64,000 nucleotides of DNA, from contig NZ_LS999839.1 of NCBI RefSeq assembly GCF_900564155.1, forward strand, positions 4,771,097 through 4,835,096. Direction: 5' to 3'. Positions 21,616 to 24,808 of this stretch are shown here, one piece after another. Made by a program: the position numbers and the translations under genes. Positions within the stretch are counted from its first letter, which is position 1; the number at the start of each line of letters is the position of its first letter. The notes beneath the pieces are model-generated. The model ran no database searches. It saw only the letters and a program-made list of their open reading frames with translations, and was not told the origin of the DNA. This DNA comes from Pedobacter schmidteae (GTDB lineage: Bacteria; Bacteroidota; Bacteroidia; Sphingobacteriales; Sphingobacteriaceae).

Positions 21616-21623
21616 TAAATTGT
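21616..21623 (+). repeat. Target-site duplication, left copy
   Basis: TAAATTGT, identical to 24801-24808, directly abutting the left end of the element. Eight bases is the usual duplication length of the IS1595 family. Confidence 0.93.
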
Positions 21624-21653
21624 GGTATTTATAGACAAAGCTAACCAACGCTA
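21624..21653 (+). repeat. Left terminal inverted repeat of IS1595-family element
   Basis: Starts GGTATTTATAGACAAA; matches the reverse complement of 24771-24800 at 24 of 30 positions. Confidence 0.9.
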
Positions 21654-21686
21654 ATTTTCATTATATTTACAATACACCACAAAATA

Positions 21687-21956
21687 ATGCCACAAGAAAA
21701 ATTAATATATGTAGAATGGATTGATAGTCAGGGTTGCACTCCTAGTTGGGTAAGATTAGATGACTATAAGCCTGAATTACCCATACATAAGAGTATTGGA
21801 TGGGTAATATATGAAGATGATAACATTTTATCTATATGTGGAAATATTGCTGATGAAACTAGTACTACCCTATATCAAGGAAATGGCATTATGACTATTC
21901 CTAAAATAGCCATAATTGCCACTAAAGAGTTAAGTAATAATTTACTTTCCCTTTGA
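21687..21956 (+). CDS. Hypothetical protein, IS passenger
   Basis: An 89-residue soluble protein that I do not recognise. It begins MPQEKLIYVEWIDSQG and has an acidic, Trp-containing, beta-rich look (SIGWVIYEDDNILSICGNI). Short proteins of this style occur in phage and mobile-element contexts, but no function can be given. It lies 34 bases inside the left end of the element, on the transposase strand, and overlaps the end of the minus-strand Lys-rich ORF by 15 bases. Probably a passenger gene. Confidence 0.65.
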   Translation: MPQEKLIYVEWIDSQGCTPSWVRLDDYKPELPIHKSIGWVIYEDDNILSICGNIADETSTTLYQGNGIMTIPKIAIIATKELSNNLLSL

Positions 21957-22088
21957 TTTCTTTTTGTCAGGTGCTTGTGTTAATGCAGAAGCTGCAACAC
22001 TTTTTTGATCTTTAGTTGAAGATTTATCTTTCAACTGTTTGGAAGCTTTTTTAGCTACACTTTTACTGGTTTTTTCGTTATTCCCCAT
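21942..22088 (-). CDS. Small Lys/Ser-rich protein, divergent from transposase
   Basis: 48 residues when started at the ATG at 22088 (MGNNEKTSKSVAKKASK...). The frame is open further upstream to 22205, but that part overlaps the transposase start. Very basic and low-complexity, ending APDKKKSKGK. It could bind DNA or RNA non-specifically. It starts 45 bases from the transposase gene in the opposite direction, so the two share a short promoter region. A second Lys-rich small ORF overlaps the transposase stop. No family recognised. Confidence 0.55.
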   Translation of the reverse strand: MGNNEKTSKSVAKKASKQLKDKSSTKDQKSVAASALTQAPDKKKSKGK

Positions 22089-22133
22089 ATTTATTGGATT
22101 ATACACTAAATATAAAAACTTAATTTTATTCCG

Positions 22134-23135
22134 ATGCCACATAATATTGAGTTCAAATCTATTCTTGATTTGATGAAAGTATTCCCTACTGAAAAAGCTT
22201 GTCATGAATATTTAGCCTATCAAAGATGGGAAGGATTAATGACTTGCCCATACGATGACTGTAAAGGTGAAGATGCTTATATCTTTAAAAATGGTATTCA
22301 AAGGAAGTGCAAATGTTGTAAACGTATTTATACTGCTAAAACAGGCACATTTATGGAAGCAAGTAAACTGTCTACAATTAAATGGATTATGGCAATGTAT
22401 TTGGTGCTACATAAAAAAGGCATTTCATCTGTACAATTAGCTAAGGACATCGGTACGTGTCAAAAGACTGCATGGCATGTATTACACAGAATAAGAGCCG
22501 CTTTTGGAAATGAAAAGGAACAGATATTAGAGGGAGAAGTGGCATCTGATGAATGTTTTGTTGGGATGAAATCAAAAAATAAGCATGCTGATAAAAAGAT
22601 AAAGTATACTCAAGGGCGTAGTTTTAAGGATAAAACTCCTGTTATGGGCATGTTGCAATTGGAGGAATACGAATTGGTATCCAGGCCACATAAAAACAAT
22701 CCTGAGAAAACAGTAATAGAAAAGGTCATTACTAAACCATCAAGGGTTATTTGTAAAGTAGTAAAGGATACTAGTGCCAAATCATTAACACCAGTTTTGA
22801 AACAGCATGTTAAATTTGGCAGTCTCTTAATTACCGATGAATGGGGTGCTTATAATGGACTAAATTGGTTTTATAACAGAGAAGTGGTAGATCATAGTAA
22901 AGGATTTTACATAAGTAAAAATGGATATACTTCAAATGCTATTGAAGGCTTTTGGAGCCATTGCAAACGCAGTATTATGGGGATTTATGTAAAACCTACA
23001 AGGAAACACATGCAAAAATACTTTAATGAGTTTGCATTTCGTTATAACTATCGTAATTTAGATGTGCAACAGCAAATAAATAACATCATTGCTAATATGA
23101 ATGTTAGATTAAAGTATAAAGACCTAGTAGCATGA
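22134..23135 (+). CDS. IS1595-family (ISXO2-like) transposase
   Basis: 333 residues. An N-terminal zinc ribbon (CPYDDC near residue 39, CKCC near 62) is followed by a helix-turn-helix-like segment (VQLAKDIGTCQKTAWHVLHRIR). The ISXO2-like catalytic domain has D139 (ASDECFVG), D235 (LLITDEWGAY) and E271 (NAIEGFWSHCKR). Reading frame and catalytic residues are intact, so the element may still be mobile. It is divergent from the 48-residue Lys-rich ORF; its stop overlaps the ATG of the 47-residue Lys-rich ORF in ATGA. Confidence 0.95.
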   Translation: MPHNIEFKSILDLMKVFPTEKACHEYLAYQRWEGLMTCPYDDCKGEDAYIFKNGIQRKCKCCKRIYTAKTGTFMEASKLSTIKWIMAMYLVLHKKGISSVQLAKDIGTCQKTAWHVLHRIRAAFGNEKEQILEGEVASDECFVGMKSKNKHADKKIKYTQGRSFKDKTPVMGMLQLEEYELVSRPHKNNPEKTVIEKVITKPSRVICKVVKDTSAKSLTPVLKQHVKFGSLLITDEWGAYNGLNWFYNREVVDHSKGFYISKNGYTSNAIEGFWSHCKRSIMGIYVKPTRKHMQKYFNEFAFRYNYRNLDVQQQINNIIANMNVRLKYKDLVA

Positions 23136-23275
23136 AAACATTAAATAAACCTACACCAAAAAAGAAAACCGCTACTAAACGCAAAAAGTCTAAAAAGGTA
23201 AAGTCCGTCAGTAGCGGCAATAAAGAACTTGATAATGCTATTAGATTAGCATTAAAATCTAAACCTAAAGAATAG
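23132..23275 (+). CDS. Small Lys-rich basic protein translationally coupled to transposase
   Basis: 47 residues (MKTLNKPTPKKKTATKRKKS...). Its ATG overlaps the transposase TGA as ATGA, which indicates translational coupling. The first half is almost all Lys/Thr/Pro/Arg, like a nucleic-acid-binding tail; the end (NKELDNAIRLALKSK) could form one amphipathic helix. It may assist the transposase in DNA binding. No family recognised, but the tight coupling argues it is a real gene. Confidence 0.6.
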   Translation: MKTLNKPTPKKKTATKRKKSKKVKSVSSGNKELDNAIRLALKSKPKE

Positions 23276-23693
23276 TTTTATTATGTGATCTTATAGCAGT
23301 CATTACTGCGAAGGAAGCGCCTATCATCATTGGGATAGCAATATCAGTATATCCGAATTTTTCAGTATAAGTAATTGTATCATCAATGCATGGTGTTGCA
23401 GTAAGAAACAGAGTATGTATTACCATAGCAATGACAGCAAAAGATACAGCACTAGTAATCCCATAAACTATTCCTAACACAATAGAAGCCGTATCTTCTT
23501 CAGGTAAATAGCGTTTAACTAAATGATAGGTTATATAATAAGAAATAGCTATCATTGCCCAATGTATAAATGTTAATTGTATAGATTTAATACTGTTAAT
23601 TCGGATTATATGTTCCAATCCATAAATAATTGCAATCCATAAGATAGCCAAGGCACCGAAAGCCAATAGGTTTAAAATAAACCCTCTTTTCAT
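23265..23693 (-). CDS. Four-helix membrane protein, IS passenger
   Basis: 142 residues with about four membrane helices: LLAFGALAILWIAIIYGL, FIHWAMIAISYYITYHLV, VLGIVYGITSAVSFAVIAMVI, and IAIPMMIGASFAVMTAI. A CIDD loop lies between helices 3 and 4. No family recognised. It overlaps the 3' end of the coupled Lys-rich ORF by 11 bases on the opposite strand. Upstream is the structured segment at 23710-23890, which could be its leader RNA or a separate RNA. Confidence 0.6.
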   Translation of the reverse strand: MKRGFILNLLAFGALAILWIAIIYGLEHIIRINSIKSIQLTFIHWAMIAISYYITYHLVKRYLPEEDTASIVLGIVYGITSAVSFAVIAMVIHTLFLTATPCIDDTITYTEKFGYTDIAIPMMIGASFAVMTAIRSHNKTIL

Positions 23694-23709
23694 TTTGTCG
23701 TAATTTGAG

Positions 23710-23890
23710 TAAAAAATAAGGCGTGGACTGCAATTCCTTCAGCTACTCAGGGTTACGACGCCCTCCACGCATAAAGATACAGCCACGCCTATACAGGCGT
23801 ACTAGATCATTTAATTGCGTGGGCTTCCGAGGTCGTAATTCGAGCAGCAATAAACGTTAGTACAATTTCTTCCTAGTGCTATACTTTAGC
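23710..23890 (-). ncRNA. Predicted structured RNA inside the IS element
   Basis: A GC-richer island in an AT-rich element. On the minus strand a TACATTTG box (23897-23904) could start a transcript near 23890. It would pass a 6-bp hairpin (23876-23881 with 23887-23892, at the very 5' end), a perfect 6-bp stem with a 4-base loop (23785-23790 with 23795-23800), and a long-range pairing of 23753-23759 with 23832-23838. It would end at a 7-bp stem (23721-23727 with 23764-23770) followed by TTATTTTTTA, a terminator-like tail. No coding frame fits. It matches no RNA family I recognise, and the boundaries are estimates. Confidence 0.5.
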
Positions 23891-23952
23891 ACCATTCAAA
23901 TGTAATAATAATACACAAACCATAAGTAACACTTATAGAAAATTAAAAGTTT

Positions 23953-24222
23953 ATGAACACTACACATTTATTATTATCCATAGTGATAGTATTACAGATT
24001 TATGTTATCTGGTTACTAAAAAGAAAAAAGAAATTTAAGTCAATAGAAAGATTTAAATATCCACTATCTTACACTAGTGAAAGTCATTCCTTTGAGGTTG
24101 ATAATGCAAAAGACAAAACCATAATTGTACATGAAGAGTCTAAGAGTGGTAAAGTCCCGATTTTACAAGAGTTTCTATCCAAGAATCAACAACCTGAGAA
24201 TAAGAAGGAGGAGGAGGAATAA
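23953..24222 (+). CDS. Single-helix membrane protein with charged tail, IS passenger
   Basis: 89 residues. An N-terminal hydrophobic helix (LLLSIVIVLQIYVIWLL) is followed by RKKKKF, giving an inside-positive anchor with a cytoplasmic tail of about 65 residues. It ends with a run of Glu (KKEEEEE). No family recognised. It is on the transposase strand in the right half of the element, after the structured intergenic segment. Confidence 0.5.
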   Translation: MNTTHLLLSIVIVLQIYVIWLLKRKKKFKSIERFKYPLSYTSESHSFEVDNAKDKTIIVHEESKSGKVPILQEFLSKNQQPENKKEEEE

Positions 24223-24317
24223 TTTTATGAATACAATAAATAAACATGAAAAAACTGATCATCCATGTAAACCCAAATATATTAGTGAAGATATCTTAAT
24301 TTCAGAAAGAATGGTTA

Positions 24318-24716
24318 CTATAAATCGGTCAAAACTGCAAAGATTTTCTTTATATTGTCGGCGTTACTCATTTTATAGATATTTACGTTCAAAAAAAATT
24401 CGGGTGAAATACGCTCTTCTAATTTTGATTGAACATTTAAAGCGGAAGTGGAGACAATATCTCTTAAAGAATCGACACTAATATCTATACTTTCTAATAG
24501 ATGCTTATGCTTAACAAGCAAACCTATTACCTCATTCCCTTTGTCATCTGTATAATGAATTTTCCAATTCAAAATTAATATTTTGAATATCGGATCTTTA
24601 TAATAGACGTCAGCTTCATATGTTAATGATATTTTTTCTTTTAGACTTAAAATAGAAGGCTGATACACAATAGGGTCAACATCAAAGCGTAATACTTTTT
24701 GCTGAAATACTTTCAT
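24318..24716 (-). CDS. Hypothetical protein, IS passenger
   Basis: 132 residues from the ATG at 24716 (MKVFQQKVLRFDVDP...); the frame is open to 24761, but the later start leaves a normal leader. The protein is soluble with alternating beta strands (ISLTYEADVYYKD, ILILNWKIHYTDD) and a C-terminal helical end. It is vaguely like SecB-fold or immunity-like proteins, which I cannot support further. It overlaps an Arg-rich open frame on the other strand (24227-24481), which looks less protein-like. It is the last gene before the right end of the element. Confidence 0.55.
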   Translation of the reverse strand: MKVFQQKVLRFDVDPIVYQPSILSLKEKISLTYEADVYYKDPIFKILILNWKIHYTDDKGNEVIGLLVKHKHLLESIDISVDSLRDIVSTSALNVQSKLEERISPEFFLNVNIYKMSNADNIKKIFAVLTDL

Positions 24717-24770
24717 AATATTTAGTTTGTTGGTACACCCTAAATATAAAAAACAAATCAATTAACTAAA

Positions 24771-24800
24771 TAGGCAAGGTTACGTTTGTCTATAAATACC
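24771..24800 (-). repeat. Right terminal inverted repeat of IS1595-family element
   Basis: The reverse complement starts GGTATTTATAGACAAA and matches the left end at 24 of 30 positions. Confidence 0.9.
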
Positions 24801-24808
24801 TAAATTGT
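24801..24808 (+). repeat. Target-site duplication, right copy
   Basis: TAAATTGT directly after the right end, identical to 21616-21623. Confidence 0.93.

Follow-up and report, generated by a model that had tools for sequence, protein, structure and literature searches.

In the genome of Pedobacter schmidteae, a structured RNA leader of about 180 nt lies directly upstream of a gene for a 142-aa protein carried as cargo by an IS1595-family transposon, and from its sequence we lean towards reading this leader as a bistable, cis-acting attenuator that controls the gene. The window examined is a stretch of 64,000 nt (NCBI RefSeq assembly GCF_900564155.1, contig NZ_LS999839.1, positions 4,771,097 to 4,835,096 of the forward strand), and the transposon occupies positions 21624-24800 within it (coordinates of all features are given in Table 1). 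A structured intergenic segment had been noted in the preliminary description of this DNA, and the structure is real, the segment folding better than its shuffles on both strands (z about -3.1). What was missed is that it forms a conserved minus-strand leader of the 142-aa passenger, and that the same leader is also found outside IS1595 elements. The RNA runs from 23871 to 23694, and its last helix strand stops 3 nt 5' of the passenger's ATG (23693-23691).

A profile search with 23680-23952 recovered the segment at 13 further loci, in either orientation with respect to the transposase, and the closest group of leaders shares 82-88% DNA identity. In every confident copy of this first set the 3' end of the leader lies at the ATG of an open reading frame (ORF), the ORFs being mutually unrelated, and the elements that carry the leader belong to different transposase lineages. 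A covariance model built from an alignment of 15 copies detects a single leader in the home genome; among 400 genomes sampled from the family, 43 carry 58 copies between them, and a few more turn up in other families of the class. Among 53 loci selected by transposase, 14 have a confident leader copy, and among about 57 loci selected by leader, 21 have an IS1595 transposase within 7 kb. A tyrosine-integrase-like ORF (family assigned from the sequence) is present in the fetched stretch of 15 leader loci, and some copies (L127, L137, L138 and L140) sit among chromosomal genes of an ordinary kind, no mobile element being recognised around them. Plasmid and phage collections gave no leader match by DNA similarity; two IMG/VR contigs classed as viral (L163 and L164) carry a leader with neither segment A' (see below) nor a good downstream ORF. 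Leaders also occur as tandem pairs (L057:8681-9095, L137:6324-6712, L135:7707-8175 and L143:7200-8238), one member of which is usually degenerate and lacks A'.

From 5' to 3', the leader contains segments A, B, C, D, B', A* and D', a U-run, and A'. The 7-nt loop of A* is complementary both to A upstream and to A' by the start codon, and all three vary together over about a dozen loop types, the A* 7-mers including GTCGTAA, GTGGTAA, GTGAGAA, GTGGTGT, GTGGTAT, GTCGTTA, TTGGCGA, TTCGTAC and GTTGGAA. Over some 20 distinct loops the longest complementary match averages 6.3 nt upstream and 4.9 nt downstream, compared with maxima of 4.6 and 4.3 nt in 500 permutations. Pairing of A:A*, A*:A' and B:B' was scored on an alignment built independently of them. 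It reaches 92.5% for A:A* (shuffled mean 72%, slid at most 50%) and 78.4% for A*:A', rows lacking A' included, with both sides changed in 9 of 10 pairs in each case, while B:B' is 85.6% paired with both sides changed in 6 of 7. The D:D' helix, which was part of the model, is 95.6% paired, again with two-sided changes in 9 of 10 pairs; one of its positions, a G-U pair in 45 of 64 sequences, swaps with G-C and A-U, which points to pairing of RNA, not DNA. The 10 nt after D' hold a mean of 7.5 U, compared with 3.0 per 10 nt across leaders, and the gap from A' to the ATG is 0-6 nt, most often 3-4. Just 5' of the leader, a relaxed form (TAnnTTnG) of the Bacteroidota -7 promoter consensus is present in 15 of 43 confident copies (control windows, 0-7), mostly 14-18 nt before the leader start.

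The genes behind the leaders are mostly unrelated and chiefly encode secreted or membrane proteins. A hydrophobic N-terminus is found in 39 of 43 of the proteins, and a lipobox-like motif in about ten. Pfam matches are limited to two UDG-like, one TPR, and SH3, lipocalin-like and DUF4359-like matches; DUF4359-like proteins, UDG-like proteins and small lipoproteins recur, with no function in common, and defence-gene profiles gave nothing convincing among the led proteins. At L152-L162, a leader subtype lacking A' precedes a conserved gene for a protein of about 400 aa (MAQERFYY...), which, where tested, matches nothing in Pfam or NCBIfam, and at most of these loci integrase- and relaxase-like ORFs lie in the same stretch. 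By eye, a further ORF that follows the led gene often begins LxILxxxGIGxxxDI (L118, L048, L049, L056, L057, L003, L133 and L137), and these genes are perhaps a recurring second cargo family.

Since A:A* excludes A*:A', and C:D excludes D:D', the leader would have two states. In state I, the pairs would be A:A*, B:B' and C:D, leaving the start region (A' and the ATG) free and the terminator-like D:D' helix blocked, so that the gene would be ON. In state II, a D:D' helix ahead of the U-run would stop transcription, turning the gene OFF; in any RNA that is read through, A*:A' pairing 0-6 nt ahead of the start codon would block initiation. The balance between the states would be set by a signal, which may be a metabolite, a protein, an RNA or the kinetics of folding. 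We infer four elements of this scheme: that the segment works in the cell as RNA, that the states alternate, which of them is ON, and the signal that sets them. Judged by covariation and position, the leader has some of the attributes of a riboswitch, namely a conserved 5' leader with putative alternative structures and an expression platform. The subtype at L152-L162, which has A:A* and the U-run and lacks A', may use termination only.

Several points weigh against such a switch. For most copies, the nested helices of state I lie at or near the energy minimum; state II depends on a pseudoknot, which the energy model leaves unscored, and the leader may instead adopt a single static pseudoknotted fold. 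C:D is nearly invariant, so that its covariation support is weak, and relatedness among the sequences inflates the shuffle statistics given above. About a dozen copies, mostly those before the conserved gene for the protein of about 400 aa, lack A', and control of translation is therefore not universal. As the regulated genes have no assigned function, no ligand is suggested.

It is unlikely that the leader acts mainly in trans, with the stop at the U-run freeing an RNA of about 160 nt whose A* loop silences matching A' sites, for copy control or exclusion, the 7-mers serving as specificity codes. The U-run after D:D', the dozen loop codes, and the copies with neither A' nor a good downstream ORF would fit this, as would the different 7-mers of co-resident copies in 14 of 15 pairs (in G309, G261, G282, G392, G324, G390 and G213; the pair in G360 matches). 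However, the within-genome difference falls short of significance (1 match where 2.7 are expected, P = 0.22), and a genus-wide search gave no further multi-copy genome for code comparison. The home genome has a single AATTACGACA..ATG site, the one within the element, and in most copies A' is on the same transcript, so that pairing in cis is simpler. There is little to recommend a DNA docking or recombination site at which cargo is exchanged just before the ATG, as at integron cassette sites. Unrelated genes do follow the same leader, even at corresponding places in related elements, and a few leaders stand in tandem (L057 and L137), but no common recombinase, such as the dedicated integrase of an integron site, lies beside the leader, the IS1595 elements sharing only their DDE transposase. 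The far side of the cargo genes showed no conserved boundary, and the G-U pairing, fixed spacing to the ATG, U-run and upstream promoter boxes suggest a role as RNA. We give equally little credence to a conserved hairpin or terminator that does not switch and is kept by elements copying each other; strong conservation in the closest group would agree with this, but A:A* and A*:A' persist even in the most divergent copies, through two-sided changes in three segments at once, and copying alone therefore does not explain them. Least credible is ribosome-mediated attenuation by a translated short ORF, for although MRGGRRNPE or a near variant is encoded in about 10 of 43 leaders and a ribosome there would melt A*, other leaders, close relatives included, have single-base insertions or no ATG with the RNA helices kept, so that the conserved translated ORF over the switch that a leader-peptide attenuator should have is not found.

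The proposed bistable attenuator resembles riboswitches and attenuators in being a 5' leader with helices that exclude each other, in having a U-run behind a GC-rich helix, and in sequestering the start region. It differs in that it has no known aptamer or Rfam match, the genes it would regulate share neither function nor homology, and an exchangeable 7-mer, which differs from copy to copy, stands on both sides of its complement. Copy-control RNAs of pT181-type plasmids also combine alternative pairing, attenuation, and loops with compensated changes; in those plasmids a separate antisense RNA competes, whereas the leader has its pairing partners on one transcript and no replication gene. In Rfam 15, neither the window element nor the 20-odd leader loci reached the gathering score of any family. 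Pedo-repair RNA (RF01715; PMC2864571), described from Pedobacter, is from the same bacterial group and of comparable length (about 210 nt), but it is a different RNA and was rejected as the identity of the leader, at which RF01715 has no match. The one real-looking Pedo-repair homologue found (L196) sits elsewhere and has no meaningful match to the leader model. A literature search that did not extend to ISfinder or subscription journals found no description of such a leader. On these comparisons, which do not include the 'Transposase-resistance' motif (PMC2864571) as it has no Rfam model, the leader appears to be a new family among RNAs of a known kind, the cis-regulatory leaders; its three-copy design and its spread on mobile cargo are unusual.

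A wider proposal, possible although rather unlikely, is that the leader is a new class of sensing RNA, a portable module for cargo expression in mobile elements of the Bacteroidota, in which the conserved core would sense a common signal and drive the three-copy 7-mer switch, the 7-mers diversifying so that co-resident copies do not interfere. If the reading as a bistable attenuator is right, transposons and integrative elements would share a ready-made RNA switch that places unrelated cargo under one control, and it would be explained how small transposons regulate cargo without an encoded regulator. The leader would then also help to find and group cargo genes not yet characterised, and would be a covarying three-strand system for the study of bistable RNA folding.

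Table 1. Features of the IS1595-family element and its RNA leader, in window coordinates.
Feature	Position	Strand	Sequence, evidence or remark
Target duplication, left copy	21616..21623	no strand	TAAATTGT; single copy at relatives' empty sites
Left terminal inverted repeat	21624..21653	+	GGTATTTATAGACAAAGCTAACCAACGCTA; starts GGTATTTATAGACAAA
ORF, 89 aa	21687..21956	+	Orphan passenger; from ORF list; no Pfam or NCBIfam match, no relative among fetched loci
ORF, 48 aa	21942..22088	-	Basic; relatives in three other elements
Transposase, 333 aa	22134..23135	+	IS1595 family, intact; Pfam PF12762, NF033547
ORF, 47 aa	23132..23275	+	Basic; overlaps transposase stop (ATGA)
ORF, 142 aa	23265..23693	-	Membrane protein, passenger behind RNA leader; ORF list, leader position
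RNA leader, about 180 nt	23694..23871	-	Structured; RNA runs 23871 to 23694
Segment A'	23697..23711	-	TACTCAAATTACGAC; ends 3 nt 5' of ATG
U-run	23711..23719	-	TTATTTTTT; terminator-like, directly 3' of D'
Segment D'	23720..23730	-	CAGTCCACGCC; pairs with D
Segment A*	23742..23759	-	GTCGTAA-CCCT-GAGTAGC; 7-mer in loop of GGG/CCC hairpin
ORF, 9 codons	23744-23773	-	ATGCGTGGAGGGCGTCGTAACCCTGAGTAG; spans B' and A*; in closest leaders only
Segment B'	23765..23771	-	TGCGTGG; pairs with B
Segment D	23780..23789	-	GGCGTGGCTG; pairs with D' or C
Segment C	23796..23800	-	ACGCC; rivals D' for D; nearly invariant
Segment B	23816..23822	-	CCACGCA; pairs with B' (23765-23771)
Segment A	23832..23848	-	GCTGCTCGAATTACGAC; upstream partner of A*; covariation, complementarity
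Candidate -7 promoter box	23897..23904	-	TACATTTG; Bacteroidota type, inferred; farther upstream than in relatives
ORF, 89 aa	23953..24222	+	Orphan; one predicted transmembrane segment; no Pfam match, no relative in fetched loci
ORF, 84 aa	24227..24481	+	Basic, orphan; coding status uncertain, overlaps opposite-strand 132-aa ORF
ORF, 132 aa	24318..24716	-	Orphan; no Pfam match, no relative in fetched loci
Right terminal inverted repeat	24771..24800	-	GGTATTTATAGACAAACGTAACCTTGCCTA as reverse complement
Target duplication, right copy	24801..24808	no strand	TAAATTGT; single copy at relatives' empty sites

The transposon had been described as a complete IS1595-family element, and this is borne out. 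It spans 3,177 bases of a 6.2-Mb single-contig genome, its 30-bp ends are identical at 24 of 30 positions and at all of the outermost 16, and both copies of the target duplication are perfect; ends that start with GG and a duplication of 8 bp are those by which the IS1595 family is recognised. A scan of 15 kb around the transposase gave no rival end pair with a GG start. In all 14 same-genus loci fetched, the genes for SDR and HxlR proteins that flank the element here adjoin, about 90-100 bp apart, and the six spacers printed from these loci, which read approximately ...CACTAAATTGT(C/T)AGGTACTAACAAAA..., each have one target copy (with a base changed in some) and no element. The boundaries and the insertion are therefore secure. 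No second copy of the element was found in the home genome. The intact transposase matches Pfam DDE_Tnp_IS1595 (PF12762; 1e-37, 129.9 bits, cut-off 27) and NCBIfam transpos_IS1595 (NF033547; 2.6e-50, 171.3 bits, cut-off 75), while an N-terminal zinc ribbon (PF12760) scores under its cut-off of 25.4 (E 0.0012, 19.2 bits).

Relatives of the transposase, counted at all match strengths, are found at 15 loci in GTDB contigs and in 126 of 301 genomes of the family. Around the better matches, 55 loci were searched automatically for ends and an 8-bp duplication, and most gave both, delimiting elements of 2.4-7 kb; where no end pair was found, the search may have missed it or the copy may have decayed. 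The ends are mostly of the GGTAAC/GGCAA type and the duplications usually AT-rich. The expectation that the ends recur as a unit elsewhere thus held, similar ends with different 8-bp duplications occurring in tens of other genomes. Two elements without a transposase (L128 and L133) have IS1595-type ends and perfect duplications, and each holds a leader copy. The element had also been said to carry an unusual set of passengers, none of them recognised. That it carries passengers and that they are unrecognised both stand, but the set is not unusual: passenger ORFs in most delimited relatives are likewise unfamiliar and mutually unrelated, and several such passengers are typical of this transposase group. 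Passenger-carrying IS1595 transposons such as MTnSag1 and tISCpe8 are known (Siguier et al. 2009, cited in PMC5704250), and they have the same IS1595 DDE transposase, terminal inverted repeats, target direct repeats and genes between the ends; they carry resistance or mobilisation genes, whereas the element here has several orphan small ORFs and an RNA-led gene. At one leader locus (L057:6359-6410, plus strand), a type-P1 twister ribozyme match was seen under the threshold (49.5 bits, E 5e-8; gathering score 67.2).

The two small, very basic proteins reported on either side of the transposase are both present, one of 48 aa on the minus strand and one of 47 aa on the plus strand. A motif of the latter, SSG(N/D)KxxDxAI (also SSGNKxLDxAI), recurs just 3' of the transposase in about nine related elements, and from its sequence and overlap this ORF is a probable translationally coupled accessory of transposition. 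Kin of the 48-aa protein (KTS..VA..AS..L....AGSALTQ / AGSVLSQ..) are found in the elements at L062, L073 and L076.

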